NCBI GenBank assembly: GCA_002733105.1
Contig: NVUI01000001.1
Span: forward strand, 106,127 to 141,723
Length of the DNA stretch: 35,597 nucleotides
Direction of reading: 5' to 3'
From: Methylophaga sp.
Lineage (GTDB): Bacteria; Pseudomonadota; Gammaproteobacteria; Nitrosococcales; Methylophagaceae
In this document: piece after piece, positions 11,447 through 31,164 of the stretch
Layout of the letters: every line of letters begins with the position of its first letter
Numbering within the stretch: position 1 is the first letter of the stretch
Translations under genes and position numbers: made by a program
The notes under the pieces: generated by a model
What the model was told of the DNA's origin: nothing
Database searches by the model: none
Seen by the model: the letters and a program-made list of their open reading frames with translations, nothing else

Positions 11447-12945
11447 GGCTGTTGTCCTTGTTCCAACTCACCGTTATCTATATCGTTACCCGAGAGAGGC
11501 TTAATGGATTTCACTGCTAACTCACCATTTTCATTGTTAAATATCTGCAGATTAACCACCATATCTTGCTGAATTTGTGAAAAATCAACAGAATGATCGA
11601 CTATAAAATTCATCGTCATTCCCGGCCTATTCCACTCCGGTATGGGCTGATGCGTTATGTTGACCATATGTTGTTTTTTAATCAGATAATTAATCGTGGC
11701 ATTAACACTGACGCTTTGAGTCAATCTATCGATTTGATTGAAACGTTTGAAATCAGATGTTTTACTCGATTCAGAATCAATCAAAAATTGAGCTGAAGAA
11801 ACAATTATGTCACCTTCATTTACGCCATCCAATATCTCAATATTTTGATCGTCAGAGCGCCCCATGATTACTGCAACTGACTTAAAGGCTCCGTCGCCTA
11901 ATGCCAACACAACTCTGTCCATAGCTCCTGTACGAATAACGGCTTCTCTTGGTAAAAGCAGGACAGAATCATCGGTATTTGCATGAATAGTAATTTGGGC
12001 AAACATATTGGGCATTAACACCCTGTCTTTATTATTAAAGCGTACCCGTACCCTTAACGTGCGAGTCGATGATTCTAAAGTAGGATAAATATAATCGACC
12101 TTACCTAACCATTCTCTTCCAGGTACATGGCTTAACGTCATTGTAACGGGCAGTCCAACTTTAACTTGCGATGCCTGTCGTTCAAAAATTTCAGCTTGGA
12201 CCCAAACACTATCCAAATCACCAATAGACATCAAGCTGGACTCTGGTTTTACAAAAACCCCTTGCCTTATGTTTAAGAAAGTAATAACGCCAGATTGAGG
12301 TGCATAAAACGTTGTTAACTGTTTCACTTGCCTATTTTTTTCTAGCTCTCGAATAAACCTTGCCGGTAGCTGCAATGCCTTTAGCCGTGCCTCAGCTGCT
12401 CGAATTAACCGTTCATTTTTACGCTGCAGCGCAATTAAATATTCTTCCTGAGCATTAACCAATGCTGGCGAATAAAGGCTATAGAGTGCTTGGCCTTGTT
12501 TTACCGGATCGCCAGATGCCTTAACATAAAGTTTTTCGACCCAACCTTCTACTCGAGGATGAACTTGAACTAATTTATCTTCATCGTATTGCACATAAGC
12601 AACCGTATTTATCTCCCCCTGCAAGGCTCCATATTTAACCGTGGTCGTCCGGACCCCTAAATTATTCGCCACATTAGGAGATATCCTGACAGTCCCTGAA
12701 CTATCATTTTGACCATCTGATGACTCATAAACAGGAATTAATTCCATGCCCATCGGTGACATTCCCGGTTTGTCACTTGTAAAATCTGGATTCATTGGCG
12801 CCACCCAATAAAGTGGCTTAACATCTTCTCCCGGCTCACTTTCTTCCGACATGTTCACCATTAGGTCTGAATCATTAAGCGTGATTAAGACTGCACCAAC
12901 AATGATGCCGGATAAAAGTAATAGTAGATTCTTTATTATGTTCAC
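11443..12945 (-). CDS. cusB: CusB-type periplasmic adaptor with fused C-terminal CusF-like domain
   Basis: This membrane-fusion protein links CusA to the outer-membrane channel and hands it metal. It has 500 residues, against about 407 in E. coli. A signal anchor occupies residues 5-24. A heavy-metal motif follows (YWVAPMNPDF...GMSPMGMELIPVY, about 46-73). The usual adaptor body has hairpin, lipoyl and beta-barrel portions (VHPRVEGWVEKLYV to PREAVIRTG). At about 413-483 lies an extra domain like CusF, with His432, Trp438 and MTM (443-445) resembling its His/Trp/Met copper site. The Trp sits at a slightly different place from E. coli CusF. It starts with GTG, preceded by GGAG inside the end of the upstream gene. 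The CusF chaperone is thus built in rather than separate. Confidence 0.92.
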   Translation of the reverse strand: MNIIKNLLLLLSGIIVGAVLITLNDSDLMVNMSEESEPGEDVKPLYWVAPMNPDFTSDKPGMSPMGMELIPVYESSDGQNDSSGTVRISPNVANNLGVRTTTVKYGALQGEINTVAYVQYDEDKLVQVHPRVEGWVEKLYVKASGDPVKQGQALYSLYSPALVNAQEEYLIALQRKNERLIRAAEARLKALQLPARFIRELEKNRQVKQLTTFYAPQSGVITFLNIRQGVFVKPESSLMSIGDLDSVWVQAEIFERQASQVKVGLPVTMTLSHVPGREWLGKVDYIYPTLESSTRTLRVRVRFNNKDRVLMPNMFAQITIHANTDDSVLLLPREAVIRTGAMDRVVLALGDGAFKSVAVIMGRSDDQNIEILDGVNEGDIIVSSAQFLIDSESSKTSDFKRFNQIDRLTQSVSVNATINYLIKKQHMVNITHQPIPEWNRPGMTMNFIVDHSVDFSQIQQDMVVNLQIFNNENGELAVKSIKPLSGNDIDNGELEQGQQP

Positions 12946-16485: not shown

Positions 16486-19107
16486 TTGAAAGATGAACTA
16501 ATACTCCAATCTCAAGTGAAAGAGCTCTACTCAGAGACTCAGCTATCAACATATAGCGCTATCGTACTCTGTATCCTTATGTATTATTTATTTCAAGCAG
16601 ATGCTATATATCACCAATTTGCAGAAATAAGCCTAGCATTGGTTATTATTTCATATCTTATTAGAGCCAGAGATTCACAGGTATATTTGTACAAGGCTGC
16701 CGATTATAAAAACCAATATTGGTCCATTAGATTTAGTGCTTTAGCTTTATTTTCGGCTGTCGCATGGTCTGCTTTCTTTATAGCTCTTTTTCCACAACAA
16801 GAAACCCAACAAGTGTTAGTTGCCTTTTGTTTGGCAGGGATTGGTATGAGCTCGCTCACTGTGCTTTTCTATAACCGCAGGCTTGTTATTATTTATCTCT
16901 GTATACTTTTTATCCCGTTAATGATTAGGCTTTACCTTCAGTCAACAATATTCTCATCTGAATTACTTATATTTTGTGCTGCTTTTTTTATATTTCTTAT
17001 CAGCACTTCAAAAAAAATATATCAAGCTTTTATCAAAAATGTTAACGCTCAATCAACCATAAACACACAAAATAAAACGTTACAAGATCATCAGTTTGCT
17101 TTTGATCAACACGCCATTGTGAGTGTGACAGATATTAGAGGCAACATCACTTACGTCAATGATAAGTTTTGTTATATTTCAGGTTTTACGCCCGAAGAAT
17201 TACTGGGGGAAAATCACAATATCTTAGCTTCGGGCTACCATACCCAAGCCTTTTTTAAGCAAATGTGGCAAACCATTGCTAAAGGAGATGTTTGGCACGG
17301 CGAAATTCAGAATAAAGCCAAAAATGGTTCAAAATATTGGGTTTCCTCAACCATTGTCCCTCTGCTAAATGAGCAAGGAAAACCACAGCAATATATCGCG
17401 ATGCGTACCGATGTCACACACTTCAAAGACTTGCAAAGACAAGATCGTTCTACCCACGAAAGCACCTTGATACGAAGTAATATTGCTCAGATACTGCAAG
17501 AAACAACCACCTTTAAAATTCGACTTGAGCAAGTACTTAAAATTTTATGTGAATTTAAAGGGTTACCCCTACAAAATAAGGCAGCCGTATTTTTATTATC
17601 TGCGGATGAAGAGCAGCCCCAACTTTATGCGGCTCATGGCACTTTTCCGGAAGAATTTGTTACTAATGAACAATTTATCAATATAGGAGATGGCTCTTGC
17701 GGCCAAGCCGCCCTTAACGGTGCAGTAAAAATTTTAGATGTCTGTCCTATTGACCATGAACATATTTGTAAAGGTATGCCTGCCCATGGACACCATGCTT
17801 TTCCTCTTAGTTATGCAGGAAAAGTGTTAGGATTTTTATTTTTATATACCGATCCCTATCCTTCAGGAAAAGGACCGGGCTTAGAGCTATTAACAAATAT
17901 TGGACAAATGATTGGTGTTGCCGTCGCCAATGAACAAGGTCATGAGGCGCTAATAAAAGAAAAGGCTATCGCTGAAAAAGCGAACAAAGCTAAATCTGAA
18001 TTTTTATCTTCCATGAGCCACGAATTACGAACCCCCTTAAATGCTGTTTTGGGTTTCAGTCAATTATTAGAAAATGACGAAGAAGAACCATTAACTGAAG
18101 GACAGAAAGAAAATATTGGTTACATTATTGATAGTGGAAAGCACTTACTCAGGTTAATCAATGAAGTGTTAGAACTGTCAGCAATTGAAGCAGGTAAAAC
18201 GGTCATTTCTATTGAACCCATCAAGCTAATAGACGTTACAAATGAATGTTTGATTTTATTGAAAAACAAGGCGGATCTTAACAAGATTCAAATCAATATC
18301 TTGGCAGAAAATCAAACTATTTTTGTGCATGCTGACTACACAAAACTAAAACAGATTTTATTAAATTTAATCAGTAATGCTGTTAAATACAATATTGACG
18401 GTGGCTTGGTCAATATTGACTGGCAGTTAGAGGAAAATGACCAAATCAGAATCAGTATCACTGATAACGGCATAGGGATATCTAAAGAAAATCAGCACTT
18501 TGTGTTTGGATCTTTTAATCGACTAGGAATGGAAAACTCAGATATTGAAGGATCAGGCATCGGCTTGCTAGTCACCAAAAATCTTGTTGAATTAATGGAT
18601 GGAATCATTGGGTTTAATAGTGTTGAAGGCCATGGCTCCACATTCTGGTTCGAGCTATCACTAGCTGAAATAATTGATCAAAAAGTGGCAGCCCCCTCAC
18701 TACCTGATGATATTGAAACATTAGATGACAACAATCATGACCAGCCCCATAAACGTGTGCTTTATGTAGAAGATAACCCTATTAACCGACAGTTAATGCA
18801 ATCATTTTTTAACAAACAAAAACATCTTGAACTACAGCTTACCGATACAGCGGAGCAAGCGTGGGATATCCTGACTGAGCAAACATTTGATCTTATTCTT
18901 ATGGATATAAATTTACCCGGCATGGATGGAATAACCTTTACAGAAATATTAAAGGCTGAAGATAGGCTTAAATCCATTCCTGTCATAGCTGTTACCGCAG
19001 CGGCAATGACCAGTGATTTTAAGGCGGCCAAGGATGTATTTGATGAGTACGTCACTAAACCCGTTGATTTCACCGAACTAATTAATTTTATAAAAAAATA
19101 TATTTAA
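16486..19107 (+). CDS. Membrane PAS-GAF hybrid histidine kinase with C-terminal receiver
   Basis: This 873-residue signalling protein starts at TTG, with AAGGAA about ten bases upstream. An N-terminal membrane region of about six helices spans residues 22-175. A PAS domain follows (about 205-315: FAFDQHAIVSVTDIRGNITY, ISGFTPEELLGENHNILASG, with a PAC-like YIAMRTDVTHF). A GAF domain lies at about 330-485. The dimerisation/phosphoacceptor helix has His512 in FLSSMSHELRTPLNA. The ATPase has its N box at NLISNAVKYN (627-636), DNGIGI and GSGIGLLVTKNL. The receiver (757-873) has Asp807 in LILMDINLPGMDG and the Lys of VTKPVD. All catalytic residues are present. The PAS sequence resembles aerotaxis/redox types. 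The next gene, 50 bases on, encodes a REC-HD-GYP protein and is the obvious partner. Confidence 0.93.
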   Translation: MKDELILQSQVKELYSETQLSTYSAIVLCILMYYLFQADAIYHQFAEISLALVIISYLIRARDSQVYLYKAADYKNQYWSIRFSALALFSAVAWSAFFIALFPQQETQQVLVAFCLAGIGMSSLTVLFYNRRLVIIYLCILFIPLMIRLYLQSTIFSSELLIFCAAFFIFLISTSKKIYQAFIKNVNAQSTINTQNKTLQDHQFAFDQHAIVSVTDIRGNITYVNDKFCYISGFTPEELLGENHNILASGYHTQAFFKQMWQTIAKGDVWHGEIQNKAKNGSKYWVSSTIVPLLNEQGKPQQYIAMRTDVTHFKDLQRQDRSTHESTLIRSNIAQILQETTTFKIRLEQVLKILCEFKGLPLQNKAAVFLLSADEEQPQLYAAHGTFPEEFVTNEQFINIGDGSCGQAALNGAVKILDVCPIDHEHICKGMPAHGHHAFPLSYAGKVLGFLFLYTDPYPSGKGPGLELLTNIGQMIGVAVANEQGHEALIKEKAIAEKANKAKSEFLSSMSHELRTPLNAVLGFSQLLENDEEEPLTEGQKENIGYIIDSGKHLLRLINEVLELSAIEAGKTVISIEPIKLIDVTNECLILLKNKADLNKIQINILAENQTIFVHADYTKLKQILLNLISNAVKYNIDGGLVNIDWQLEENDQIRISITDNGIGISKENQHFVFGSFNRLGMENSDIEGSGIGLLVTKNLVELMDGIIGFNSVEGHGSTFWFELSLAEIIDQKVAAPSLPDDIETLDDNNHDQPHKRVLYVEDNPINRQLMQSFFNKQKHLELQLTDTAEQAWDILTEQTFDLILMDINLPGMDGITFTEILKAEDRLKSIPVIAVTAAAMTSDFKAAKDVFDEYVTKPVDFTELINFIKKYI

Positions 19108-19157
19108 CCGTGATCATGTAATACAATTCAGAAATCTACAGTTGATACTAGATAATA

Positions 19158-20231
19158 ATGGAAAATATAAAACAGCAGATCCTCGCCGCTAATGTACTTA
19201 TTGTTGATGATCAGGCACTTAATATAAAATTGCTTGAAAAAATTCTTAAGCAAGCTGGATATCAAAATATATTCAGCACCACCGATCCACGGCAAGTAAC
19301 TGATATGTACGTAGAGCTTGATGCTGACGTCTTGTTACTAGATATTCGAATGCCTCACCTAGATGGTTTTCAGGTCATGGAACAATTACAAACGGTGGTA
19401 GGTGACGATTATTTACCCATTCTGGTATTGACGGCAGAGTTAACCACTGAAACTAGGAGCAAAGCGCTAGGCGGCGGTGCTAAAGACTTTTTAACCAAAC
19501 CATTTGAACAGCAAGAAGTTTTACAACGCATTAACAACATTATCGAAGTACGCTTATTATACAAACAGGTTCGCCAACAAAATAAACGACTAGAAATAGA
19601 AGTAAAAAAACGCACACACGAACTAGAAGAAAGCAGGCTTGAAATTATTCAGCGTCTTGGAAAAGCAGCTGAATACAAAGACAATGAAACAGGGAATCAT
19701 GTTATTCGCGTTAGCATGTACGCAAAACTATTGGCAAAAGCTATTGGACTGTCTGAAATAGATGTTGATTTAATATTTAATGCCATACCGATGCATGATA
19801 TCGGTAAAATCGCCATCCCAGACCACATATTATTAAAACCGGGTAAGCTTGATCCTGCTGAATGGGAAATCATGAAAACGCACGTTAATCTAGGTGCTGA
19901 ATTATTATCAGGTGGCCACTCTCCTCTAGTAATAATGGCAAAAAATATTGCATTAACCCACCATGAAAAATGGGATGGCACCGGTTACCCCAATGGCTTA
20001 GTCGGTGAAAACATCCCGATGGAAGGACGAGTTTGTGCAATTTGTGATGTATTTGATGCTCTTTTATCGGAGCGACCATATAAAAAAGCATGGCTCATAG
20101 AAGACACTATGGCTTTTCTTCACCAAGAAAAAGGTAAACACTTTGAGCCATTGTTAGTTGATAAATTTGTACAAATATTACCGGAGGTTATGAATTTTCG
20201 AGCAGATCACCTTGATACAGAAGAAAGCTAA
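19158..20231 (+). CDS. Response regulator with HD-GYP c-di-GMP phosphodiesterase domain
   Basis: This 357-residue cytoplasmic protein has a receiver at residues 1-125 (VLIVDDQALNIKLLE, phosphoacceptor Asp62 in LLLDIRMPHLDGF, Lys in LTKPFEQ). A coiled linker near 130-160 (KRLEIEVKKRTHELEESRLE) leads to an HD-GYP domain (165-345). The metal and active-site signature is intact: the HD of MHDIGKIAIPD, then HHEKWDGTGYPNGL with the GYP triplet, and DVFDALLSERPYK. It should hydrolyse c-di-GMP when phosphorylated. The preceding hybrid kinase is the likely phosphodonor. It sits between the kinase and the energised-envelope operon, so it may set when that operon acts, but no direct link is visible. Confidence 0.92.
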   Translation: MENIKQQILAANVLIVDDQALNIKLLEKILKQAGYQNIFSTTDPRQVTDMYVELDADVLLLDIRMPHLDGFQVMEQLQTVVGDDYLPILVLTAELTTETRSKALGGGAKDFLTKPFEQQEVLQRINNIIEVRLLYKQVRQQNKRLEIEVKKRTHELEESRLEIIQRLGKAAEYKDNETGNHVIRVSMYAKLLAKAIGLSEIDVDLIFNAIPMHDIGKIAIPDHILLKPGKLDPAEWEIMKTHVNLGAELLSGGHSPLVIMAKNIALTHHEKWDGTGYPNGLVGENIPMEGRVCAICDVFDALLSERPYKKAWLIEDTMAFLHQEKGKHFEPLLVDKFVQILPEVMNFRADHLDTEES

Positions 20232-20402: not shown

Positions 20403-21008
20403 ATGGACAAAAGCAATCCCCTCCGCTTAACAGATATACAGGGCTTCCTGATTGCTATACTGATGACTATTGCTTCACAAGCCCCTGCTGCTGAAGCTTT
20501 GGCAGCGACCATTGATTGTTCTGATGTGGCCATTCATTATGTTGACAACCCAGAATGGACTCAAACTGAAAGGCTAGAGGCTATGGATAAAGCTTTTTTC
20601 GAATCGGTAGATCGTTTTGAGTTGTGTAACTTATCCAATCAATCTAACTCAGCATCAACAAGCGGGGCTAATCAAGTATCTGGCGCAGCTAATGGCAGTG
20701 AAGTCGGCTTGGACTCTGTAGCAAGTCCAACACTATCGGGGACAGAATCAGAACCAACATTGCCACCAATAGATTTTGCCGAAAACTCAGGGCAACCTGA
20801 AGATGCCACCAACGAATCGGTTACAGTAAATGGCAGTGGTTCTACTAATGGCACCATTCCTAAAGACATTCCTGCTGCCGATAATGATGATGTAATCGCA
20901 GCTCAAATCCGACTTGCAGCTGAAATCGAAAAAGATCCGGTTAAAAAAGAAAAACTATGGAACGAGTATCGTAAATATAAAGGAATTCCTGTCAATGATA
21001 ATGAATAA
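20403..21008 (+). CDS. Secreted protein of unknown function, first gene of the envelope-machine operon
   Basis: This 201-residue protein is not one I recognise. The ATG at 20403 gives a clean signal peptide (hydrophobic GFLIAILMTIASQAPAA, likely cleaved near EALA-A). The frame is open further upstream but that extension is not protein-like. The mature protein has a short N-terminal region with two cysteines (Cys39 and Cys75) that could form a disulfide. A low-complexity Ser/Asn/Gly/Thr/Pro stretch of about 85 residues follows, then a charged C-terminal helix (VIAAQIRLAAEIEKDPVKKE, then WNEYRKYKGIP). This suggests a small anchor, a flexible linker and a docking helix. The next gene starts inside its last codons. 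It is preceded by 171 gene-free bases that probably hold the operon promoter, though no convincing box was found. Confidence 0.65.
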   Translation: MDKSNPLRLTDIQGFLIAILMTIASQAPAAEALAATIDCSDVAIHYVDNPEWTQTERLEAMDKAFFESVDRFELCNLSNQSNSASTSGANQVSGAANGSEVGLDSVASPTLSGTESEPTLPPIDFAENSGQPEDATNESVTVNGSGSTNGTIPKDIPAADNDDVIAAQIRLAAEIEKDPVKKEKLWNEYRKYKGIPVNDNE

Positions 21009-22239
21009 TAGAGACCAAACAGCAAAAAAAGTTATCACTTACATACTTATTTTTTCACATTTTCTTGTGGGTTGTGCAACAACAGGTGGCCAACAAACGA
21101 CAGCAAAAGCAGGTCCAAAATCTTCCTCATCTTATGAAGAGAAAGTAATTGAGACCATCTCTACAGCACCTAAACTTGATGTCATTATCCCTATTTTTAA
21201 CCCCGGCCTATCTGAAAATGCAGAAAATTATCAAGAAGAAGGTATTTGGCCTGAATTACGCCGTGCAGAAGCCAATCGATTTGCTTATAAACTGAAACAA
21301 GCACTCGATAATAGTCATGAGTTTGGCGCCGTACGTGTCACACCAGATGAAACTGCATCGGGCGACTTATACGTGCTTGGTACAATTGAGGAATCGGATG
21401 GTCAAGACGTTAAGTTTAAGCTCAATGTGGTAGATATAAGTGGCAAAGAATGGCTTGATAAAACATTCAAACATGAAGTGCAAGAATCTTTTTATAAGAA
21501 TAATAGAAATAGTGGCAAAGATCCCTATGACCCTGTTTTCAAGGCCGCAGTCGATAAAATTATTGCTGCCTTAAAAAAACGTAGCTCTTCAGAATTGGAT
21601 AACTTGAAATATATTGCTGACTTGCGGTTTGGTGCTAGCTTTAATGATGCCGCCTTTATGGAATACATGGATACCAACGGTAAATATATCAAGTTAGTGA
21701 GCAAACCAAGTGACAGTGACCCGCTCTTTCAACGAGTGATGGCGATTCGTGTGCGTGAACAATTATTTGTAGATAATCTACAACAGAATTACGTTTCTTT
21801 TTCGCAAAATATGGACACCAGCTATTTAAGCTGGCAAGAAGCTAGCTTTACTGAAAAGAAACTCCGTAAAGAAGCTAAAAATGAAGGTATATTAAAAACT
21901 TTGGGAGGCGTAGCACTTATTGCGTTAGCAATAGTTGCTGCGACATCTAAGAAAAAGAAAAACTCAAACGCCGCCATCAATACCGCTACCATTGCCAGTG
22001 GCGTAGGGGGGGCACTGTTGATATTCAGTGGCTTTAAATCTAGAGAAGAAGCAAAATCACATCAAGATGCTCTTAACGAATTAGGTGAATCAATAAACCT
22101 TGAATTGGAACCAAGAGTTATTTCTTTTGAAGATGAATCTGTTGAATTGACCGGCAATATACAGCAACAATTTAAGCAGTGGAGAGAATTTCTAAAACGT
22201 ATCTATGAACAGGAATCAACCCCTAATACGGAACTTTAA
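20995..22239 (+). CDS. Envelope lipoprotein of unknown function with two C-terminal hydrophobic segments
   Basis: This 414-residue protein starts at ATG 20995, 14 bases inside the previous gene, with AAGGA 10 bases before it. The lipobox is LVGC (Cys27, then ATTGG). Residues about 60-195 (PKLDVIIPIFNPGLS, FAYKLKQALDNSHEFGAVRV, GDLYVLGTIEESDGQDV, LNVVDISGKEWLDKTF) have the rhythm of small alpha/beta lipoprotein domains such as LpoB, CsgG or the TolB N-terminal domain. That likeness is structural guesswork. A helical part follows, then two hydrophobic segments (about 299-317 and 330-347) split by a KKKKN stretch, and a hydrophilic end (VISFEDESVELTGNIQQQF). Membrane segments in a lipoprotein are unusual. 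It could link outer and inner membranes or assemble as a ring. Confidence 0.65.
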   Translation: MIMNNRDQTAKKVITYILIFSHFLVGCATTGGQQTTAKAGPKSSSSYEEKVIETISTAPKLDVIIPIFNPGLSENAENYQEEGIWPELRRAEANRFAYKLKQALDNSHEFGAVRVTPDETASGDLYVLGTIEESDGQDVKFKLNVVDISGKEWLDKTFKHEVQESFYKNNRNSGKDPYDPVFKAAVDKIIAALKKRSSSELDNLKYIADLRFGASFNDAAFMEYMDTNGKYIKLVSKPSDSDPLFQRVMAIRVREQLFVDNLQQNYVSFSQNMDTSYLSWQEASFTEKKLRKEAKNEGILKTLGGVALIALAIVAATSKKKKNSNAAINTATIASGVGGALLIFSGFKSREEAKSHQDALNELGESINLELEPRVISFEDESVELTGNIQQQFKQWREFLKRIYEQESTPNTEL

Positions 22240-22245
22240 TACATC

Positions 22246-23706
22246 GTGGTACTTGAACAGAAAATCCTAGCAGCCAAAACAAAACGACGTGGTCAATTTA
22301 TTAAAGTTGCTATCGGCCTTATTACTGTTTCACTACTCTGCATAGCCGTAGTTTTATATCTTTCTTGTTGCCAAATTAATCATAGCGAAGCTGAAATTGT
22401 TTTCTCCAATAATGGCCTCGAAACAGAGCAAAATAGCGTAACAACCAATCCTGTACAACTATCAACAGCTCCTGATAATCAACTACGACAAACCTACATC
22501 AAGGCAGTCAGTGATTATGAAAACAATCTCAAACCAGCACTTAACAAAATTAATTTATCCAAGTGGAGTAAACCTCAAGCCCAGCGCCTTGATACATTAG
22601 CAAATGAGGCGCTATCAAAATTCAGTAATACCGATTATGCCGGTGCCATCAATTCTGTTGAAGAACTAAAGCAACTGGCACAGGCAACCATTATTGACAG
22701 CCAGCAAGAATTTACAGAGGCCATGTCTAGTGCGCAGCAGGCGTATAACACTGATAACTATGATGATGCCAAGCTTCAGATAGCTAATGCATTGATGCTA
22801 GATAAAACCTCTGTTGAGGCGATGGATCTTTCGATTAAAATAGATAAATTGCCAGAAATTTTGACCTTGCTTGAGAAAATAAACATAGCCAGAGTTGAAA
22901 ACAAACCTGAGAAAGAATTAAGCCTTATAAAAGAAGTTATTAAACGCGCCCCTGAGCGAGAATCCGCTGTTAAACGAAAACAAGCTTTAACAGATATTAT
23001 TAATAATAAAAACTTCAAAGCCTATATTGTTCAATCCTATCAAGCAATAAAGCAAAGTAATGCAGCCAAAGCAAAACACAAACTCATTGCCGCAAAAAAA
23101 ATCTTTGCTAATCGTCAAGAAATTGGAGATATTGCCATAGCACTACAACAACTTGAAAAACAGCAACACTTTGATACATATCAACAAAAAGCACAAATAG
23201 CTATTGCTACTGATGACTGGGTTACAGCTAAGAAACAATTGGAATTAGCCTTGCTAGAACACACTGATGATAAATCTATTCAAAAATCATTACTCACAGC
23301 AACCACCATTATTGCGTTAAAAAATGAGTTTAATCATCACATCAATAATCCTTATCGTTTATCCAGCACACTGCTTGCATCAAAAATGGAAGACAAAATA
23401 GCTGAAGCCTCTGCATTTACCAGTATCAGTCCTTCACTTGACCAAAAAACAAATGTTTTATCTCGTCTTATTGAAAGTATGAGTAAAAAAATCTCTGTAG
23501 AAGTGAGCTCTGATAATCAGACCAATATTCTGGTTCGAGGGGTTGGCATCGTTGGAATAACACTGTTAAAAATAATTCAATTAACACCTGGCCACTATAC
23601 ATTTGAGGGTAAACGTAAAGGCTATAAATCTAAATTAATAGATGTACTTATTCCTTATGATAAAACAAGTTATAGCTTAAGCATCCACTGTGATGAACCC
23701 ATTTAA
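22246..23706 (+). CDS. Bitopic protein with TPR-like helices and a C-terminal PEGA-like domain
   Basis: This 486-residue protein starts at GTG, six bases after the upstream stop. It has a 17-residue basic cytoplasmic leader (VLEQKILAAKTKRRG), one membrane helix (about 19-40) and a large periplasmic part. Residues 80-400 are almost all helical and rich in Ala, Lys and Gln, with spacing like degenerate TPRs (EAMSSAQQAYNTDNYDDAKL, AQIAIATDDWVTAKKQLELA). The last 75 residues (ISVEVSSDNQTNILVRGVGI to LTPGHYTFEGKRKGYKSKLI) look like a PEGA beta-sandwich. The leader motif QxLLAAKxKxR recurs in the next gene product, which hints at a shared origin or assembly partner. Function unknown; probably a periplasmic scaffold. 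Confidence 0.65.
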   Translation: MVLEQKILAAKTKRRGQFIKVAIGLITVSLLCIAVVLYLSCCQINHSEAEIVFSNNGLETEQNSVTTNPVQLSTAPDNQLRQTYIKAVSDYENNLKPALNKINLSKWSKPQAQRLDTLANEALSKFSNTDYAGAINSVEELKQLAQATIIDSQQEFTEAMSSAQQAYNTDNYDDAKLQIANALMLDKTSVEAMDLSIKIDKLPEILTLLEKINIARVENKPEKELSLIKEVIKRAPERESAVKRKQALTDIINNKNFKAYIVQSYQAIKQSNAAKAKHKLIAAKKIFANRQEIGDIAIALQQLEKQQHFDTYQQKAQIAIATDDWVTAKKQLELALLEHTDDKSIQKSLLTATTIIALKNEFNHHINNPYRLSSTLLASKMEDKIAEASAFTSISPSLDQKTNVLSRLIESMSKKISVEVSSDNQTNILVRGVGIVGITLLKIIQLTPGHYTFEGKRKGYKSKLIDVLIPYDKTSYSLSIHCDEPI

Positions 23707-25699
23707 TCAACAATTACTTGCTGCAAAAAAGAAACAGCGCCTGTTATATATGGGGGTGTTTGCAGCCTTTTTAATCGGTATTTTTATCGTTTTAACTATT
23801 ATTCTCGTTTCACAGGGCACTCGTATTGAGATACAGCCAGATAATGCAGCTGCATTATCATCGGTACGTCTCCATAAAGGCTTTGCTGTTATCACTGGTG
23901 AAACACTCTATTCAATCTCAAAACATCCCGCTATTGCCGTATCCGCAGAAGGCTTTCGATCAAAAATCCAAGTACTAAATAACAATGATTTTGGCAAAGT
24001 AATGTCTGTCGTATTGGAGCCTCTACCCGCTACAATAGAACTTAGTACCAACATTGATGACGACAAAACCAGTTGGCTCATTAATGGTGAAGTCCTCGCT
24101 ATTGCCAAAACATTTGAGTATGAACTGGCTGCCGGCAATTATGAGCTTATTGTGACTCACCCTCATTTTAATAACGCCTCTTTAACACTGTCTTTAGCAC
24201 GAGGTGAATTTTTTAAAAAAGCCATTCAAGTCTCTCCTATCGATGGTATGTTGACCATAAAAACAACTCCAACAGGGGCCAAGATACTCGTTGATTCTGT
24301 TGATGCTGGCTCGTCACCACTAGGCTTGCCTTTGCAAGGTGGTCACCATAATGTCACTGTCACCTTCGACAACTATGCAACCATTAATGACACTATTGAA
24401 ATACGTCAAACAAACCCTAATATTAACCGAGATTACAGACTGGAATTAAAGAAGGCCTCTGCCAGCCTATCTTTAGCACCCAAGAATGGAAAACTGCTTT
24501 TAGATGGTATTGTCGTTAACAAAACTTCTAAAATCAGCTTTAAGGCGGGGATCCAGCATCAACTAACTTATTCTAAACAAGGCTATTTCACAAAAAGCAA
24601 AACATTCAATATCGCCGCTAATGAAACGTTACAATTGGCCTTTAATCTAAAAAAAGAAATGGGCATTATTGAGATTGAATCGTCACCCACATCTGAAGTT
24701 GAATTGAATGGAAAACCTATTGGTAGCACCCCACTCCAATTATCCCTAAACGCTATTGAACAAAAAATAACACTACACAAAAAAGGGTTTCGCAGTGTCA
24801 CAAAAGTAGTGATTCCAAGTGCAGCGAATACTAAAAAAATCAGTGTATCCTTAATCAGTAAGAAAAAGGCAGCACTTAAAGAAGCGCCTAATCGATATAC
24901 ACATAAAGCAGGTGGTGAATTAAAACTATTCAGGCCTAATGATATTTTCACCATGGGAGCAAAACGGAGTGAAATCGGCCAAAGGGCAAATGAATTTATA
25001 AAAGAAATCCGACTTAGCAAGCCCTTTTATGCCGGAGTTTATGAAGTTACAAATAAAGAATATCGCCAATATAATAAAAACACTCAAGGTGATGCTAACA
25101 AGCCAGTTACCTCAGTTTCATGGATAGAGGCTGCTGAATTTTGTAACTGGCTTAGCCGGCTTGAAGGATTAGCACCTGTTTATCGTATTAACAATAAGCA
25201 GCTGCAAGGCATTAATACAAATAGTAATGGCTATCGCTTATTAACTGAAGCTGAATGGGAATGGTTAGCTAGAAAAGCAGGAAAATCAACACAAACCTTA
25301 TTTGTATGGGGCAATGAATATGTTATCCCCAAAAACACTATTAACATCGCTGATGAATCAGCCAAAGGCCAAGTGAAAACCTTTGTTTCAAAATATAATG
25401 ACGGTTACTCTAAAGTAGCGCCTGTAGGTAGTTTTACACAAGAAAAATCAACGCTCTATGACCAAGGTGGCAACGTCAGCGAATGGACTCATGATAGTTA
25501 TTCGATAGTACTGCCTGAATCAGGTAAAGTGTTTCAAGATCCTTTTGACCTGACAAAAGGTAGTTCACATGTGATCAAAGGTGCAAACTGGCGTTCTGGA
25601 TCGATCACTGAACTCAGACCCTCTTTTAGAGAAGGCCTGATTGATTCACGTGATGACCTTGGCTTTCGAATTGGACGATATGTTTATGGAGGAAATTAA
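23693..25699 (+). CDS. Bitopic multi-PEGA protein with C-terminal FGE-sulfatase/SUMF1-type domain
   Basis: This 668-residue protein overlaps the previous gene by 14 bases. I chose ATG 23693 over the adjacent GTG. After a basic leader and a membrane helix (about 18-40), the periplasmic part has about four PEGA-type repeats (near 112-182, 185-255, 257-322 and 325-390; for example MLTIKTTPTGAKILVDSVDA and IIEIESSPTSEVELNGKPIG, each ending in a GYF or GFR turn). Residues 415-667 form an FGE-sulfatase domain: FTMGAK, FYAGVYEVTNKEYRQY, PVTSVSWIEAAEFCNWLSRL, GYRLLTEAEWEWLARKAG, DQGGNVSEWT, VIKGANWRSG and DLGFRIGR. The cysteines that serve catalysis in true formylglycine-generating enzymes are absent near GANWRSG, so this is probably a binding module rather than an enzyme. 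It likely acts as a surface or peptidoglycan-facing adaptor of the complex. Confidence 0.8.
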   Translation: MNPFNQQLLAAKKKQRLLYMGVFAAFLIGIFIVLTIILVSQGTRIEIQPDNAAALSSVRLHKGFAVITGETLYSISKHPAIAVSAEGFRSKIQVLNNNDFGKVMSVVLEPLPATIELSTNIDDDKTSWLINGEVLAIAKTFEYELAAGNYELIVTHPHFNNASLTLSLARGEFFKKAIQVSPIDGMLTIKTTPTGAKILVDSVDAGSSPLGLPLQGGHHNVTVTFDNYATINDTIEIRQTNPNINRDYRLELKKASASLSLAPKNGKLLLDGIVVNKTSKISFKAGIQHQLTYSKQGYFTKSKTFNIAANETLQLAFNLKKEMGIIEIESSPTSEVELNGKPIGSTPLQLSLNAIEQKITLHKKGFRSVTKVVIPSAANTKKISVSLISKKKAALKEAPNRYTHKAGGELKLFRPNDIFTMGAKRSEIGQRANEFIKEIRLSKPFYAGVYEVTNKEYRQYNKNTQGDANKPVTSVSWIEAAEFCNWLSRLEGLAPVYRINNKQLQGINTNSNGYRLLTEAEWEWLARKAGKSTQTLFVWGNEYVIPKNTINIADESAKGQVKTFVSKYNDGYSKVAPVGSFTQEKSTLYDQGGNVSEWTHDSYSIVLPESGKVFQDPFDLTKGSSHVIKGANWRSGSITELRPSFREGLIDSRDDLGFRIGRYVYGGN

Positions 25700-25701
25700 C
25701 G

Positions 25702-25854
25702 ATGAGATTATTAATCAGCAATAAGAAAAGAATGGTTGTTATAAGTTTATTTATTGTTCTGTTAGTGCTTACATCTGCATTGATTCACAAAGCCTATGCA
25801 GGTAAAGCAACCATAAGTCTTAACTCGCCCGTCTCTTTTCCAATCGATATATAG
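25702..25854 (+). CDS. 50-residue secreted micro-protein
   Basis: A strong ribosome-binding site (GGAGG, nine bases before the ATG) starts this 50-codon frame two bases after the multi-PEGA gene. The product has a basic N-terminus (MRLLISNKKRM), a hydrophobic stretch (VVISLFIVLLVLTSALI) and a textbook cleavage site HKAYA-G, leaving a mature peptide of only about 17 residues (GKATISLNSPVSFPIDI). The next gene starts 11 bases after the stop. Its retention with a strong ribosome-binding site inside a compact operon argues that it is translated. It may be a small structural subunit or a ligand, or it may stay uncleaved as a one-helix membrane protein. No family recognised. Confidence 0.6.
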   Translation: MRLLISNKKRMVVISLFIVLLVLTSALIHKAYAGKATISLNSPVSFPIDI

Positions 25855-25865
25855 GGATCGCTGAC

Positions 25866-26612
25866 ATGATTAAAAATTTTATTGCTCTTGTTATCTCCAT
25901 TATCTTTGTGCACATGATTTATATCGGTTATATCCGCCCTGAAGCCAATGCATTAATTGAAATCGCCCAAATAGAAGGACTCTCCTCACCTAGAGAAATT
26001 GTGGTGATATTAAAAGACTACGAACAGGAAATATGTTTCATCTTAATGATATGGGGCTGTTTTTTAATCACCACTAATTATCGAGAAATCTTAAAAACAA
26101 AATACTTGTTTTCTGTTGATTTGCTCGAAGAGAAAGATACCGACAAACTTGATGTGGATAATATTATCAAAAGGCTAGACAAACAAATACCGAAAGATTG
26201 TTTATCATCACCACTAGTGCAAACACTACGCTCATCATTATGGCGATACGCGGCTACCAGAAATGTACAAAATTTATCTGATGCAATTGAAAGTAATCTT
26301 GAAGCCTTAGCCGTGAGACAAGATTCTGAAAACTCAATGATCCGTTATTTGATATGGGCTATTCCGTCTATCGGTTTTATCGGGACAGTGCGCGGTATCG
26401 GTCAAGCTTTATCGTTGGCGGATCAAGCTCTAGCCGGAGATATATCGGGTATGACAGACAGTCTCGGCGTTGCTTTCAATTCAACACTTGTCGCATTATT
26501 AATAAGCGTTTTTTTGATGTTTCTTTTTCACCAGTTACAACGGTTACAAGATAGCCAAATACTTGATACTCAAGAGTACTGTGAGAAGTATTTACTCAGC
26601 CGAATAAGATAG
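25866..26612 (+). CDS. MotA/TolQ/ExbB-type proton channel subunit
   Basis: This 248-residue inner-membrane protein has helices at about 4-22, 55-69, 160-178 and 200-223. The hallmark region is IRYLIWAIPSIGFIGTVRGI followed by SLGVAFNSTLVALLISVFLM. Thr174 in GTVRG and Thr207 correspond by eye to ExbB Thr148 and Thr181, which line the ion path opposite the ExbD aspartate. The cytoplasmic loop (about 75-155) is typical in size. The family forms pentamers around a dimer of single-pass partners and converts the ion gradient into movement. Partners here should be the next two gene products. No TonB, TolR, MotB or ExbD gene of ordinary type is nearby. Confidence 0.88.
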   Translation: MIKNFIALVISIIFVHMIYIGYIRPEANALIEIAQIEGLSSPREIVVILKDYEQEICFILMIWGCFLITTNYREILKTKYLFSVDLLEEKDTDKLDVDNIIKRLDKQIPKDCLSSPLVQTLRSSLWRYAATRNVQNLSDAIESNLEALAVRQDSENSMIRYLIWAIPSIGFIGTVRGIGQALSLADQALAGDISGMTDSLGVAFNSTLVALLISVFLMFLFHQLQRLQDSQILDTQEYCEKYLLSRIR

Positions 26613-26622
26613 GTCTCTCGGT

Positions 26623-27684
26623 TTGATTCAACGTAAAAAACTAGCAGGATTTAACCTCGCCTTTCTTGACATCATGTCATGCGGCCTTGGCGCCATTATT
26701 CTTGTTTTTATGCTGGTGAAGCATAATGTAAATGATTCATCGGTTGAACTCGATAACCTGAAAAATGATATTCAAAGTCTTGAACAAAGAAAAAAAACCG
26801 CTCTTCAAGCATTAAAAAATATAGATGCTCAACTTATTAAAAACATCGAACAAGAAGCTAATGCCAACAACCAACTTGCACAAAGGCAAGCTATTTTAGC
26901 TAAAAAAAGCGCCGATATTGAAATAGCGGCAAAGGAAATAGAAACACTAAAAGCAGAAATTAAAGACATTAAAGTTATAAAGAAGGAAGATTTAGTAGCA
27001 ACCGAGCAGGTCAATGAACAGAATTACCTATTAGGGCTTAAAGTTGAAGGGCCAAAAATTGCTTTATTGGTAGACAGCAGTGCATCAATGACCAATGAAA
27101 AATTAATCGATATTATTAAAACAAAAAATAGTTCTAATGCAGAAAAACAACAAGCAAAAAAATGGATCCGAACAAAGAAGGTTGTTGGGTGGTTATTGGC
27201 TCGTTTACCAAAAAATAGTGATGTTGTCGTTATCACATTTAGTGAAAAGGCAAAAATACTAGGTAAGCAAGGCTGGATGAAAGCCAGATCCACTGAAAAT
27301 ATAGCCAAGATACAAGCTGATTTAAATGCCCTGATCCCTGAGGGAGCGACCAACCTGCAACGTGGGCTTCAGGCTGTCAATAAATTTGCACCATCAAATT
27401 TATACATTATCACTGATGGACTGCCCACTAAGGGAGATTCACAGTATAAAAGCCTGAACCCATTTGCCAGTTGCAGTTCTTTATTAGGTAACTCAAATAC
27501 TATCTCAGGTGACTGTAGAGTTAAGTTATTTCAACAGACGATCAAAGAGAGCGCACGCCCTGGTATCCAAATAGACGTTGTATTATTACCACTTGAAGGT
27601 GACCCCGATGCAGTGAATCAATACTGGTATTGGACCGCAGCAACAGGGGGATTAGTGCTTAGTCCCGCAAATAATTGGCCATGA
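26623..27684 (+). CDS. Single-pass protein with MotB/ExbD-like helix, coiled-coil stalk and periplasmic vWA domain (1)
   Basis: This 353-residue protein starts at TTG, with AGG about nine bases before it. After a short basic leader comes FLDIMSCGLGAIILVFML (residues 14-31). Asp16 at the head of the helix followed by x-M-S matches the MotB pattern ADFMT and the ExbD aspartate. Residues 38-130 are a charged heptad-like coiled coil (VELDNLKNDIQSLEQRKKTA and onward). Residues 143-350 are a von Willebrand A domain with a complete metal site: DSSAS (151-155), Thr243 in GATNL, Asp265 in ITDG. Two cysteines (CSSLLG, DCRV) could pair. It should be the moving partner of the channel subunit, presenting an adhesion-type domain in the periplasm. 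A role in binding an envelope target is inferred. Confidence 0.82.
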   Translation: MIQRKKLAGFNLAFLDIMSCGLGAIILVFMLVKHNVNDSSVELDNLKNDIQSLEQRKKTALQALKNIDAQLIKNIEQEANANNQLAQRQAILAKKSADIEIAAKEIETLKAEIKDIKVIKKEDLVATEQVNEQNYLLGLKVEGPKIALLVDSSASMTNEKLIDIIKTKNSSNAEKQQAKKWIRTKKVVGWLLARLPKNSDVVVITFSEKAKILGKQGWMKARSTENIAKIQADLNALIPEGATNLQRGLQAVNKFAPSNLYIITDGLPTKGDSQYKSLNPFASCSSLLGNSNTISGDCRVKLFQQTIKESARPGIQIDVVLLPLEGDPDAVNQYWYWTAATGGLVLSPANNWP

Positions 27685-28631
27685 AATTACGTAAAAGAGA
27701 ATTCGACATTTTTAATCTGTCTTTTTTGGATGTTATTTCCTGTGGCTTTGGTGCTGTCGTCATGCTAGTTTTGATTTCAAAAACAAATGACGATACCTCT
27801 GTATCAGGAAGAGAACAGATTGGGGCTTTACTAAAAACCGTTATTACTCTTGAAAACACGATTTCTGAGGCCCAACAAACTATCGAAATTCGATTATCAA
27901 AATCCACCCAATCATCAAACAAAAGACAACAAATAGAAACTGCTTCTGTTCAACTTGGAAACAAAATACAGCAACAAAAAGAAAAACAAGCATCACTCAC
28001 TGCTGATGTACAAGGTCTCGCATTGGTTCAGTCAACCTTAAAACAGGCTTCCATTTCAACACCTAAAACAACCAATACAGTTCGTGATGCTGAAGTAGGC
28101 GGCATTCCTGTTGATAGTGATTATGTTATTTTTATTGTTGATACATCCGGCAGTATGAAACAAATATGGAACCGTGTATCTACTGAAATTATCAACGTGT
28201 TGAATATTCATCCTAAAGTGAAAGGCTTTCAAATATTGAATGACATGGGGATATCACTCATACCAAGCTACGATGGCCAGTGGATACCAGATACACAGGG
28301 AAGAAGAACGAATGTAATCAATATATTTGATAAATGGGCTGCCGTATCAAACAGTAGCCCTGTCGAAGGTCTGCAAGTAGCATTGCAAAAATATGCAAGG
28401 CCTAATATTACAACGTCCATTTATGTATTTGGTGATGACTATACAGGCTCATCTTATGACCCTGTTATTGATACGATCACTAAACAGAATTTATTAGCAA
28501 GTTCAGGAAAAAAACTAGCTAAAATTCACGGTGTTGGTTTTATCTCCGCTGGGACAACAAATAGGTTTGGTATCTTAATGCGTGAACTGACCAAACGAAA
28601 TGGTGGGGCATTTATTGCTTTACCTCTTTGA
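27681..28631 (+). CDS. Single-pass protein with MotB/ExbD-like helix and periplasmic vWA domain (2)
   Basis: The start codon overlaps the previous stop (ATGA), so the two vWA proteins are translationally coupled, which suggests a heteromeric pair. This one has 316 residues. FLDVISCGFGAVVMLVLI (15-32) carries Asp17 in the same place as Asp16 of its neighbour. A Gln-rich helical stalk spans about 44-120. The vWA domain (about 147-316) has DTSGS (154-158), a Ser pair in NSSPVEGL where a Thr is usual, and GDD (251-253), so metal binding is likely but slightly altered. It is the last gene of the operon. The paralogy with its neighbour suggests one rotor or stator partner of each kind, as in asymmetric two-copy ExbD/MotB dimers, but this is inference. 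Confidence 0.82.
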   Translation: MKLRKREFDIFNLSFLDVISCGFGAVVMLVLISKTNDDTSVSGREQIGALLKTVITLENTISEAQQTIEIRLSKSTQSSNKRQQIETASVQLGNKIQQQKEKQASLTADVQGLALVQSTLKQASISTPKTTNTVRDAEVGGIPVDSDYVIFIVDTSGSMKQIWNRVSTEIINVLNIHPKVKGFQILNDMGISLIPSYDGQWIPDTQGRRTNVINIFDKWAAVSNSSPVEGLQVALQKYARPNITTSIYVFGDDYTGSSYDPVIDTITKQNLLASSGKKLAKIHGVGFISAGTTNRFGILMRELTKRNGGAFIALPL

Positions 28632-28745: not shown

Positions 28746-28786
28746 TGACAGAGGCTTTTCTGTCTTAATTTTGTTGGAGAACTATG

Positions 28787-29110
28787 ATGAAAACAATTAA
28801 GTTAAGCACCATTTTTCTATTATTGAATTCTTTTTTTATAACAGCTCATGCTTATGAAACTGTTGAACGTAGCTTTGCTGAACAGCTGGAAGAACAGAAG
28901 ACACAACTTCGCCCACAAGAATTTAACTTTTTTAGTGATCGTTACAAACAGGTTAAAGCCCATGAGAAAATAATGGATAGTAAACCGGCAATGGTTAAAG
29001 GTGACAAGATATCATTTAAAATGCAACTCGATAGCCAGACTCAATTATTAACAGATCACAATCTTTACCCAGTAGTGAGTATTCAATCTTCACAACCATT
29101 TACTAATTAA
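28787..29110 (+). CDS. Small secreted protein of unknown function
   Basis: This protein of about 107 residues has a signal peptide (KTIKLSTIFLLLNSFFITAHA, cleaved before YETVE) and a mature part of about 86 residues. The mature part is charged and has no cysteine (FAEQLEEQKTQLRPQEFNFF, then KGDKISFKMQLDSQT). ATG 28787 sits seven bases from GGAGA; the ATG just before it, at 28784, would also work and adds one Met. It has its own promoter-like boxes and a strong terminator, so it looks like a single-gene unit. It follows the vWA operon on the same strand and is presumably periplasmic, so it may be a soluble accessory, but nothing in its sequence shows this. Confidence 0.6.
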   Translation: MKTIKLSTIFLLLNSFFITAHAYETVERSFAEQLEEQKTQLRPQEFNFFSDRYKQVKAHEKIMDSKPAMVKGDKISFKMQLDSQTQLLTDHNLYPVVSIQSSQPFTN

Positions 29111-29256: not shown

Positions 29257-30315
29257 TCATCTCAATAATTGCCATAGTGAACCATCGTTTATCGCCTTAT
29301 CTTTTTTTGCTTTATCCAGTGAATTATCGTGCATATAGTTAGCGAATACTTCAGAGCAAGCCTGCCAACTGTTCTTTCTTGCGTAATCAATACAATCTTG
29401 AGGATTAAGCTGAAGTGCTTGACCAACAGCTTTGCCTAAATCTTCATCTAAAATACCTGTTACACCATTCATAACAACATCTTTGGGCCCAGTAACAGGA
29501 TAGGCTGCAATAGGCACGCCACATGCCATCGCCTCAAGTAATACCAAACCGAATGTGTCTGTTTTGCTAGGGAAAACAAAAACATCTGCAGTAGCCACCC
29601 AAGAAGCAAGCTCTTTACCAAATTTAGCACCCGTAAAAAGGACATTTGGATAACGCTGTTTTAGCCTTTCCAAATCAGGCCCATCACCTACCACCACTTT
29701 ACTCCCAGGAAGATCTTGCTGTAAAAAGTCTTCAATATTTTTTTCCACTGACACTCTCCCCATATAAAGAGCAATAGGACGAGGCAAATCAATCTGCTGA
29801 GGATCCTCTGGTGTGAAAATTTCCGTATCTACCCCTCTTCCCCACACATACACATTATTAAAGCCACGTTGCTGAAGTTGTTTTTGCATTGATTCAGTTG
29901 GGACTAATGTTCTCACGGCTTTACTATGAAAGCGTTTAAACCATGAGTAAGTACAGCTCATTGGGATCGGAACTCGTAAACGTAAGTACTCAGGAAACTG
30001 GGTATGATACGAAGTGGTGAAATTGATTTTATTCTGCAGACACCAGTGTCTAGCTGCTATACCCAAAGGCCCTTCTGTTGCAATATGAATTGCATCTGCA
30101 TTAATCGCAGCTAAATCACCAGACACTTTTTTGCCAGGGAACAATGCCAAAGGAATAGAAGGATAACTTGGACAAGGGATAGTACGGTGACCTTCAGTAG
30201 TTACCATATAAACTTCATGGCCCATCTCCACAAGATGATTAAAAGTTTGTTTGAGTGTTCTCACCACACCGTTGACTTGCGGCTCCCATGCATCTGTTAC
30301 TATCGCAATCTTCAT
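29257..30315 (-). CDS. agt: GT4 glycosyltransferase of the Agt type (glycolipid synthesis)
   Basis: This 352-residue glycosyltransferase has the GT-B fold. The N-terminal part has IVTDAWEPQVNGVVRTLKQ and IHIATEGPLGIAARHWCLQ; the C-terminal part has YMGRVSVEKNIEDFL, KVVVGDGPDLERL and SKTDTFGLVLLEAMACGVPI, where the usual E-x7-E is D-x7-E as in close relatives. It overlaps plcP by one base (TAATG), so both are made together. In marine bacteria the same PlcP-Agt pair replaces phospholipids with mono- or glucuronosyl-diacylglycerol when phosphate is scarce. PlcP supplies the diacylglycerol and Agt adds the sugar at the inner membrane. The symbol is given for this pairing. Which sugar is used cannot be read from the sequence. 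Confidence 0.8.
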   Translation of the reverse strand: MKIAIVTDAWEPQVNGVVRTLKQTFNHLVEMGHEVYMVTTEGHRTIPCPSYPSIPLALFPGKKVSGDLAAINADAIHIATEGPLGIAARHWCLQNKINFTTSYHTQFPEYLRLRVPIPMSCTYSWFKRFHSKAVRTLVPTESMQKQLQQRGFNNVYVWGRGVDTEIFTPEDPQQIDLPRPIALYMGRVSVEKNIEDFLQQDLPGSKVVVGDGPDLERLKQRYPNVLFTGAKFGKELASWVATADVFVFPSKTDTFGLVLLEAMACGVPIAAYPVTGPKDVVMNGVTGILDEDLGKAVGQALQLNPQDCIDYARKNSWQACSEVFANYMHDNSLDKAKKDKAINDGSLWQLLR

Positions 30316-31109
30316 TAGGCTGCCTTTGGTAAAATAGTAGTTTGGCTGACTAAATCAGCCCATTTTATGATTTCCATACGGCCATCCTGATGCTCAACCA
30401 AAGCCGTACAGCTCTCTACCCAATCTCCACAATTGTAATAATCCACACCATTAATTTTACTGATTTCCGCTCGATGAATATGACCACAAACAACACCTTC
30501 CACACCTTGTTCTGCGGCTTCACGTGCAACTGCTTCTTCAAAATCACTGATAAACTGAACAGCATTCTTTACTTTATGTTTGATAAAAGCAGCCAACGAC
30601 CAATACGAAAATCCTAATTTACGCCTTACAGTATTCACCCAATGGTTAGCTCGAAGTAAATAGCCGTATAAACGACCGCCAACTTTAGCAAGAAAGGGAG
30701 AATGTCTAACCACACAATCAAACTTGTCGCCATGAAGAATGAGTAATTTACGACCATCCGCTGTGGTGTGTATCGTTTCATTACGAATTTCGACATTACC
30801 AAATATGGCACCATCAAAATCCCGTAGCAGCTCATCATGATTACCGGGCACATAAATAACCTTGGTGTCATGTTTAGCCTTGCCAAGAACGGTCCGAATA
30901 ACATTGTTATGCTGCTGCGGCCAGAACATACGTTTTTTCATCTCCCATATATCGATAATGTCACCAACCAAGTAAAGATAATCACATTCAACGTGATGTA
31001 GAAAATCTAATAATAAATCGGCACTGCACCCACGAAAACCAAGGTGAATATCAGATATCCATACCGTTCGAACTCGCATAACTTGTTTAGGGCTAATAGC
31101 TGTTTCCAT
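30315..31109 (-). CDS. plcP: PlcP-type metallophosphoesterase (phospholipase C of lipid remodelling)
   Basis: This 264-residue calcineurin-type phosphoesterase carries every metal-binding motif: SDIHLG, GDIIDIW, GNHDE, HGDKFD and GHIHRAE. Such proteins are often labelled UDP-2,3-diacylglucosamine hydrolase (LpxH-like). The end (VDYYNCGDWVESCTALVEH) and coupling to an Agt glycosyltransferase fit PlcP, which cleaves phospholipid headgroups under phosphate starvation. I chose ATG 31109 (METAISPKQVMRV) because GGGA lies nine bases before it and because the PhoB-like repeats upstream would leave a normal leader. A longer TTG start at 31148 would put the gene almost on top of its promoter. A start at Met 31079 is also possible but has no ribosome-binding site. 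Confidence 0.82.
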   Translation of the reverse strand: METAISPKQVMRVRTVWISDIHLGFRGCSADLLLDFLHHVECDYLYLVGDIIDIWEMKKRMFWPQQHNNVIRTVLGKAKHDTKVIYVPGNHDELLRDFDGAIFGNVEIRNETIHTTADGRKLLILHGDKFDCVVRHSPFLAKVGGRLYGYLLRANHWVNTVRRKLGFSYWSLAAFIKHKVKNAVQFISDFEEAVAREAAEQGVEGVVCGHIHRAEISKINGVDYYNCGDWVESCTALVEHQDGRMEIIKWADLVSQTTILPKAA

Positions 31110-31164
31110 TAATTGGAATCCCATGTGGTTTTGTCGCACAGTAACCAAGATTTATTGCAGCTTT

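Follow-up and report, generated by a model that had tools for sequence, protein, structure and literature searches.

An eight-gene block of Methylophaga that joins a TolQ-like channel to a pair of vWA proteins and candidate envelope partners

Known ion-driven motors of 5:2 composition power gliding and phage defence as well as flagella, Ton import and Tol-Pal. In the window, by which we mean the whole stretch of 35,597 nucleotides from Methylophaga sp. that was analysed, eight ORFs on the plus strand, spanning 20403-28631, place a channel gene of this type next to two vWA genes and five further genes. This raises the question of whether such a set is already known, whether its genes belong together, and on what a motor of this kind could act.

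Composition and co-inheritance of the block

The initial annotation had called the system apparently undescribed. For the motor core g6-g8 this does not hold, as a study of Idiomarina (Mol Biol Evol 2025, PMC12204202, Fig. 4c,d) reports TolQ-like genes that are tightly linked to heterologous vWA pairs. These pairs bear a TolR/ExbD-like pore helix with an Asp and occur without tolR/exbD. PMC12204202, which presents AF3 models, proposes that they and the channel form a new family of 5:2 motors, and gives its function as unknown. Because two Idiomarina species in our set (L107 and L113) carry the full block, we take g6-g8 to belong to the motor family of PMC12204202; the features by which that family is defined there, namely a non-identical vWA pair with pore helix and Asp, an adjacent TolQ-like gene and the lack of tolR/exbD, were all found in the block. 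For the other five genes the claim appears to stand. The main text of PMC12204202 never mentions PEGA, FGE or sulfatase and leaves the other five genes of the block unnamed, and literature searches on PEGA with ExbB and von Willebrand, on the annotation names and on follow-ups to PMC12204202 revealed nothing else on the block.

The features of the block are listed in Table 1. Eight same-strand genes with overlaps or gaps of at most 11 bases had been described initially; the ORFs and their common strand were confirmed, but the overlap of g3 and g4 is longer, at 14-17 bases, the start of g4 being ATG 23693 or GTG 23690. The other junctions consist of an 8-base overlap between g1 and g2 (TAA 21008, ATG 21001), a 6-base gap between g2 and g3, gaps of 2, 11 and 10 bases at g4/g5, g5/g6 and g6/g7, and a 4-base overlap (ATGA) between g7 and g8. 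An Rfam search of the window gave no match, and a promoter scan found a number of sites no higher than in shuffled sequences.

Table 1. Features of the eight-gene block, in coordinates of the window
Feature	Position	Strand	Description
g1	20403..21008	+	secreted protein, 201 aa
g2	21001..22239	+	lipoprotein with LVGC lipobox; predicted FlgT/PelC/CsgG/TolB-N-like domain (~21166-21594); long helices; glycine-rich stretch
g3	22246..23706	+	bitopic: short cytoplasmic N-terminus, TM, TPR-like helical region, conserved C-terminal beta-rich domain
g4	23693..25699	+	bitopic: three PEGA stretches, then FGE/SUMF1-fold domain (~24947-25672)
g5	25702..25854	+	50 aa; signal-peptide/TM-like segment (AYA-G); near-invariant C-terminal tail SLNSPVSFPIDI (25816-25851)
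g6	25866..26612	+	MotA/TolQ/ExbB channel subunit; pore Thr174 (26385), Thr207 (26484)
g7	26623..27684	+	TM helix with Asp16 (26668-26670), coiled coil, vWA domain (27058-27681), MIDAS intact
g8	27681..28631	+	TM helix with Asp (27729-27731), ~80-residue helix, vWA domain (28119-28628)
Terminator-like hairpin, 3' of the block	28747..28764	+	consensus match only

Directly upstream of the block on the same strand, 16486-20231 encodes a hybrid histidine kinase (873 aa) and an HD-GYP response regulator, which are not kept beside other blocks. After the block comes a small secreted protein of 108 aa without a family match (28784-29110), also not seen beside other blocks, followed on the opposite strand (29257-31148) by a glycosyltransferase and a metallophosphoesterase that by eye resembles UDP-2,3-diacylglucosamine hydrolase. 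A large RND-type efflux transporter, CusA-like by eye, is encoded at 8321-11467.

We checked whether the eight genes co-occur as a block, as the initial annotation had suggested. A profile scan of genome contigs with the g7 alignment gave at least 554 relatives, 80 of which were kept, and record titles assigned the g7 relatives to Gamma-, Alpha-, Beta- and Zetaproteobacteria, Desulfobacterota and Binatota. The results showed that all eight genes are present in 61 of the 64 loci with enough flank, a count that takes in further distant loci as well as the kept g7 relatives; the order is the same in 59, and in 8 of these a further gene, gX, is inserted between g6 and g7. Among 370 gammaproteobacterial genomes, orthologues of g6 (E < 1e-70) and of g7 (E < 1e-45) occurred in exactly the same 29, giving the block a frequency of about 8% of the genomes sampled. 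Separate occurrence of the channel and vWA homologues had been named as an observation that would speak against a joint machine, and in this survey the two were found together. g2 was present in 25 of the 29 genomes and in one genome without g6 or g7. The flanks differ between loci, with only very common families or close relatives in common. The Methylophaga blocks occupy several different chromosomal sites, the system being present in only some genomes of the genus, and no g7 relatives were found in the plasmid records searched. By these sequence comparisons, the block is well supported as a real unit that is co-inherited as a whole.

Several unusual arrangements were also observed. The lone g2 (G587:C1:1845962-1847092), in the genome without g6 and g7, has an in-frame TAG and is possibly a remnant of a decayed block. 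In two marine alphaproteobacterial loci (L102 and L103), g1-g3 are inverted and relocated beyond g8 (downstream in L103), with linkage kept. In G609 the g6 orthologue lies at C39:153319-154080 and its g7/g8 on another contig, C5; in the related loci L141 and L176, g6 is placed after g8, so that the gene order is loosened in that family.

The channel and its paired vWA proteins

g6 had been read as a MotA/TolQ/ExbB channel subunit, and this was supported. It matches Pfam MotA_ExbB (PF01618) with 49.6 bits, above the cut-off of 22.9, and has a pore Thr in both core TM helices. Both residues (T174 and T207) are 100% conserved in 80 homologues, and their columns align with the pore Thr of the TolQ/ExbB-type proteins of the same genome. 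An acidic residue that several of these proteins have 5 positions before the second Thr is missing from g6, so its ion pathway may differ. A PDB sequence search with the g6 profile gave no match, and no other ExbD/TolR-type gene was detected in the block with Pfam or NCBIfam.

The two single-pass vWA proteins were likewise borne out. g7 matches Pfam VWA_2 with 39.7 bits (cut-off 27), and its MIDAS residues D151, S153, S155, T243 and D265 are 100% conserved in homologues. g8 has no Pfam match in the window sequence, and a PDB sequence search with its profile matched mainly coiled coils; its assignment comes from its homology to g7 and from a model. An hhalign comparison (99.7%, E 2e-26) aligns g7 with g8 over the TM helix, the coiled coil and the vWA core, by which we regard them as mutual homologues. 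The AF2 model of g8 (pLDDT 83) predicts one helix at residues 11-34, another at 42-124 and a vWA domain, with a Z of 17.4 against solved vWA structures. Our AF2 models are of single chains, built from 33-35 sequences, and helix 42-124 may be one straight shaft or may be arranged otherwise. In the g8 MIDAS, DxSxS and the later Asp are kept, and the Thr position is not clearly assigned.

An Asp heads the TM helix of both proteins, 98% conserved in g7 (D16) and 100% conserved in g8, and no OmpA-like domain was found on g7 or g8 with Pfam. With this Asp where the pore helix begins and the channel Thr kept, the vWA proteins appear to replace ExbD/TolR/MotB next to the channel, in agreement with the initial annotation. 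Homology of g6-g8 to the known motors is well supported by these residues and alignments, and the 5:2 assembly is a prediction made in PMC12204202.

Putative envelope partners and the small protein g5

The remaining genes had been described as encoding a secreted protein, a lipoprotein, two bitopic PEGA or PEGA-like proteins with an FGE fold, and a pre-peptide. g1 is indeed secreted; it has no Pfam family. Its C-terminal part has a conserved motif (P-DIP--DND...QIR-AA--E-DP...LWNEYRKYK), and N161, D162, E176, L185 and Y189 are 98-100% conserved in 64 homologues. g2 is a lipoprotein of the outer-membrane type, and the C26 of its lipobox is 97% conserved. In the g2 model (pLDDT 78), residues 58-200 resemble FlgT (Z 12.0), PelC (Z 12.0), CsgG (11.1) and TolB (9.7), and a PDB sequence search with the g2 profile gave no match. 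This fold forms rings in FlgT, PelC and CsgG. A predicted fold of the ring-forming type is not in itself proof that g2 forms a ring.

The PEGA assignment held for g4, in which Pfam PEGA reaches 98 bits over 3 stretches, but not for g3. The latter is TPR-like, with TPR families matching many of its 34 homologues; Pfam finds PEGA in none of the 34, and the PEGA resemblance of the g3 C-terminus is by eye only. The FGE fold of g4 was also confirmed (FGE-sulfatase, 114 bits), whereas an enzyme was not. Formylglycine-generating enzyme requires two Cys in its active-site segment, and Cys is missing from this segment of g4 in 79 of 80 homologues, so the domain is likely non-catalytic. It is probably a pseudo-enzyme with a role in binding or structure, in the manner of GldK/PorK-type proteins. 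A YadA-type anchor was searched for and is absent.

Between g4 and g6, nearly every block has an ORF ending in SLNSPxSFPVDI-COOH or close variants; g5 was undetected in two fragmentary or divergent distant loci. The loci contain 74 in-block ORFs that end in FPxDI-stop, and none of their remaining ~15,100 ORFs has this ending. The g5 of the distant branch starts like a signal peptide, has a low-complexity linker and differs in sequence elsewhere, with the tail unchanged. An AxA/VxA site lies 10-24 residues from the end of g5 in 62 of 77 cases, consistent with putative cleavage to a short mature peptide. Like the other block genes outside the motor core, this tiny protein with its near-invariant tail seems to be unreported.

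Binding of the g5 tail Asp to a vWA MIDAS was considered as well, and the loci give only a hint of it. In four Alteromonadales loci the g5 tail ends N-I or S-I and the surroundings of the g8 MIDAS are altered as well (DNSGSM, GxSAP); these four seem to be a single clade, and the usual g8 is retained in two further loci whose g5 tail is changed. We did not retain this candidate.

Proposed mechanism and comparison with known systems

We consider it probable that the block encodes a trans-envelope machine on a 5:2 motor, whose vWA-tipped shaft is coupled to an outer-membrane assembly. A channel of five g6 subunits would surround the pore helices of g7 and g8, which would pair as a heterodimer, and ion flow past the paired Asp would move the g7:g8 pair relative to the pentamer. 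g7 and g8 would extend as a coiled-coil shaft of ~80 residues, ~12 nm long if straight, with the two vWA heads in the periplasm. Via their metal sites, the heads would grip partners from the same operon, namely the inner-membrane-anchored scaffolds g3 and g4, the outer-membrane lipoprotein g2, the secreted g1 and the g5 tail, and force or torque would thereby be passed to the outer-membrane side. Candidate cargo is outer-membrane remodelling, surface attachment or envelope-structure assembly. We infer the ion flow, a rotation of the pair, the contacts between heads and partners and the coupling to the outer membrane.

The distant branch points to a further layer in some lineages. gX, which sits between g6 and g7 in several gammaproteobacterial blocks, is represented in the window's own genome (82.5% complete) only by a 13.6-bit fragment. 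Searched against PDB, the gX profile finds FHA domains (E 0.0003) and DnaK (E 0.006), and gX is tentatively a cytoplasmic protein with a DnaK-like N-terminal part. A Pfam FHA domain is found in exactly three of the 12 gX (L033, L174 and L185), and in exactly these three distant blocks a Ser/Thr kinase domain is fused N-terminally to g3 (L033:15622-18087, L174:13148-15928 and L185:4646-7108). This pairing (3/3 versus 0/9) has a chance of one in 220 when simply counted, with no correction for kinship, and suggests that phosphothreonine signalling is linked to the complex in these lineages. It also lends itself to another reading of the whole block, namely an envelope sensor in which the vWA heads, the pseudo-FGE and the lipoprotein would sense damage or tension and signal inwards, with ion flux as an amplifier and not as force. 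Among the proteins of T6SS regulation, TagR resembles FGE and PpkA contains a vWA domain. The FGE-type, lipoprotein, kinase and FHA parts recall the TagQRST-PpkA-Fha1 pathway reviewed in PMC10482370. However, kinase and FHA are absent from the window's block and most others, and the complete motor residues favour energy conversion. A link to T6SS was dropped, as VipB was not found in the window's own genome (82% complete). We judge a sensor to be unlikely.

A secretion or assembly machine like GldLM/T9SS, in which the motor would supply the energy for exporting or maturing a product, perhaps g1 or the g5 peptide, via an outer-membrane ring of g2, would fit the nearness of the g2 fold to PelC, CsgG and FlgT and the resemblance of g5 to a cleavable short peptide. 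The best NCBIfam match of the g4 FGE domain is GldK, though far below the cut-off (79 of 350 bits). Comparison of the flanks, however, revealed no outer-membrane pore, peptidase or cargo gene accompanying the block, and the near-invariant g5 tail suits a docking part more than diverse cargo, which leaves this reading quite unlikely. A Zorya-type anti-phage system is highly improbable: g6 has a weak match to ZorA2 (16 bits) and the distribution is patchy over several chromosomal sites, but no effector nuclease or helicase is present, the other genes have no convincing PADLOC match, the flanks are without common defence genes, and an OmpA-like domain is absent from g7/g8.

The trans-envelope machine remains our preferred reading. 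A bolder form of it, which we hold to be quite unlikely, would be a self-contained and transferable rotary machine whose turning pair of metal-dependent vWA heads time and again grips and releases the invariant acidic FPVDI-COOH tail of g5, as a small secreted protein, or an outer-membrane lipoprotein ring, gated in some lineages by the fused kinase and the FHA-bearing DnaK-like partner.

Compared with known systems, the block has the channel family, the pore Thr and the pore-helix Asp in common with the ExbBD, TolQR and MotAB 5:2 motors, but differs in its heterodimer axle, long coiled coil and vWA heads, and has no ExbD/TolR fold or OmpA-like peptidoglycan-binding domain. The initial annotation had set the system apart from Tol-Pal and Zorya, and we agree. 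As to Tol-Pal, Pfam and NCBIfam find no TolR, TolA, TolB or Pal among the eight genes, with only a TolB-N-like fold in g2; as to Zorya, ZorC-E effectors are lacking along with the OmpA-like domain. GldL/GldM-GldK of T9SS and gliding likewise combine an ion motor, a long periplasmic shaft and an FGE-fold partner, whereas g4 is bitopic with PEGA and reaches 79.1 bits against the GldK cut-off, and no other T9SS genes are found in the block. TagQRST-PpkA-Fha1 has the lipoprotein, the FGE fold and vWA in common with the block, as well as kinase and FHA in the three distant blocks, but motor subunits are central in the block, and VipB is lacking as described above.

The TPH-vWA/TolQ-like family of PMC12204202 has the same TolQ-like channel beside a heterologous vWA pair, with the pore-helix Asp and without tolR/exbD. 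Beyond the main text of PMC12204202, the block brings the five other genes, the g5 tail, the pseudo-FGE, the g2 fold, the kinase/FHA branch and the strict conservation of eight genes. The motor core has already been proposed, and the full eight-gene machine, the g5 tail and the kinase/FHA branch are apparently new. For the recently proposed vWA-axle motor, the block supplies a full set of at least eight parts whose genes have stayed together across great evolutionary distance, and with its likely envelope partners named, a tiny conserved protein included, what a vWA motor pushes on becomes testable.
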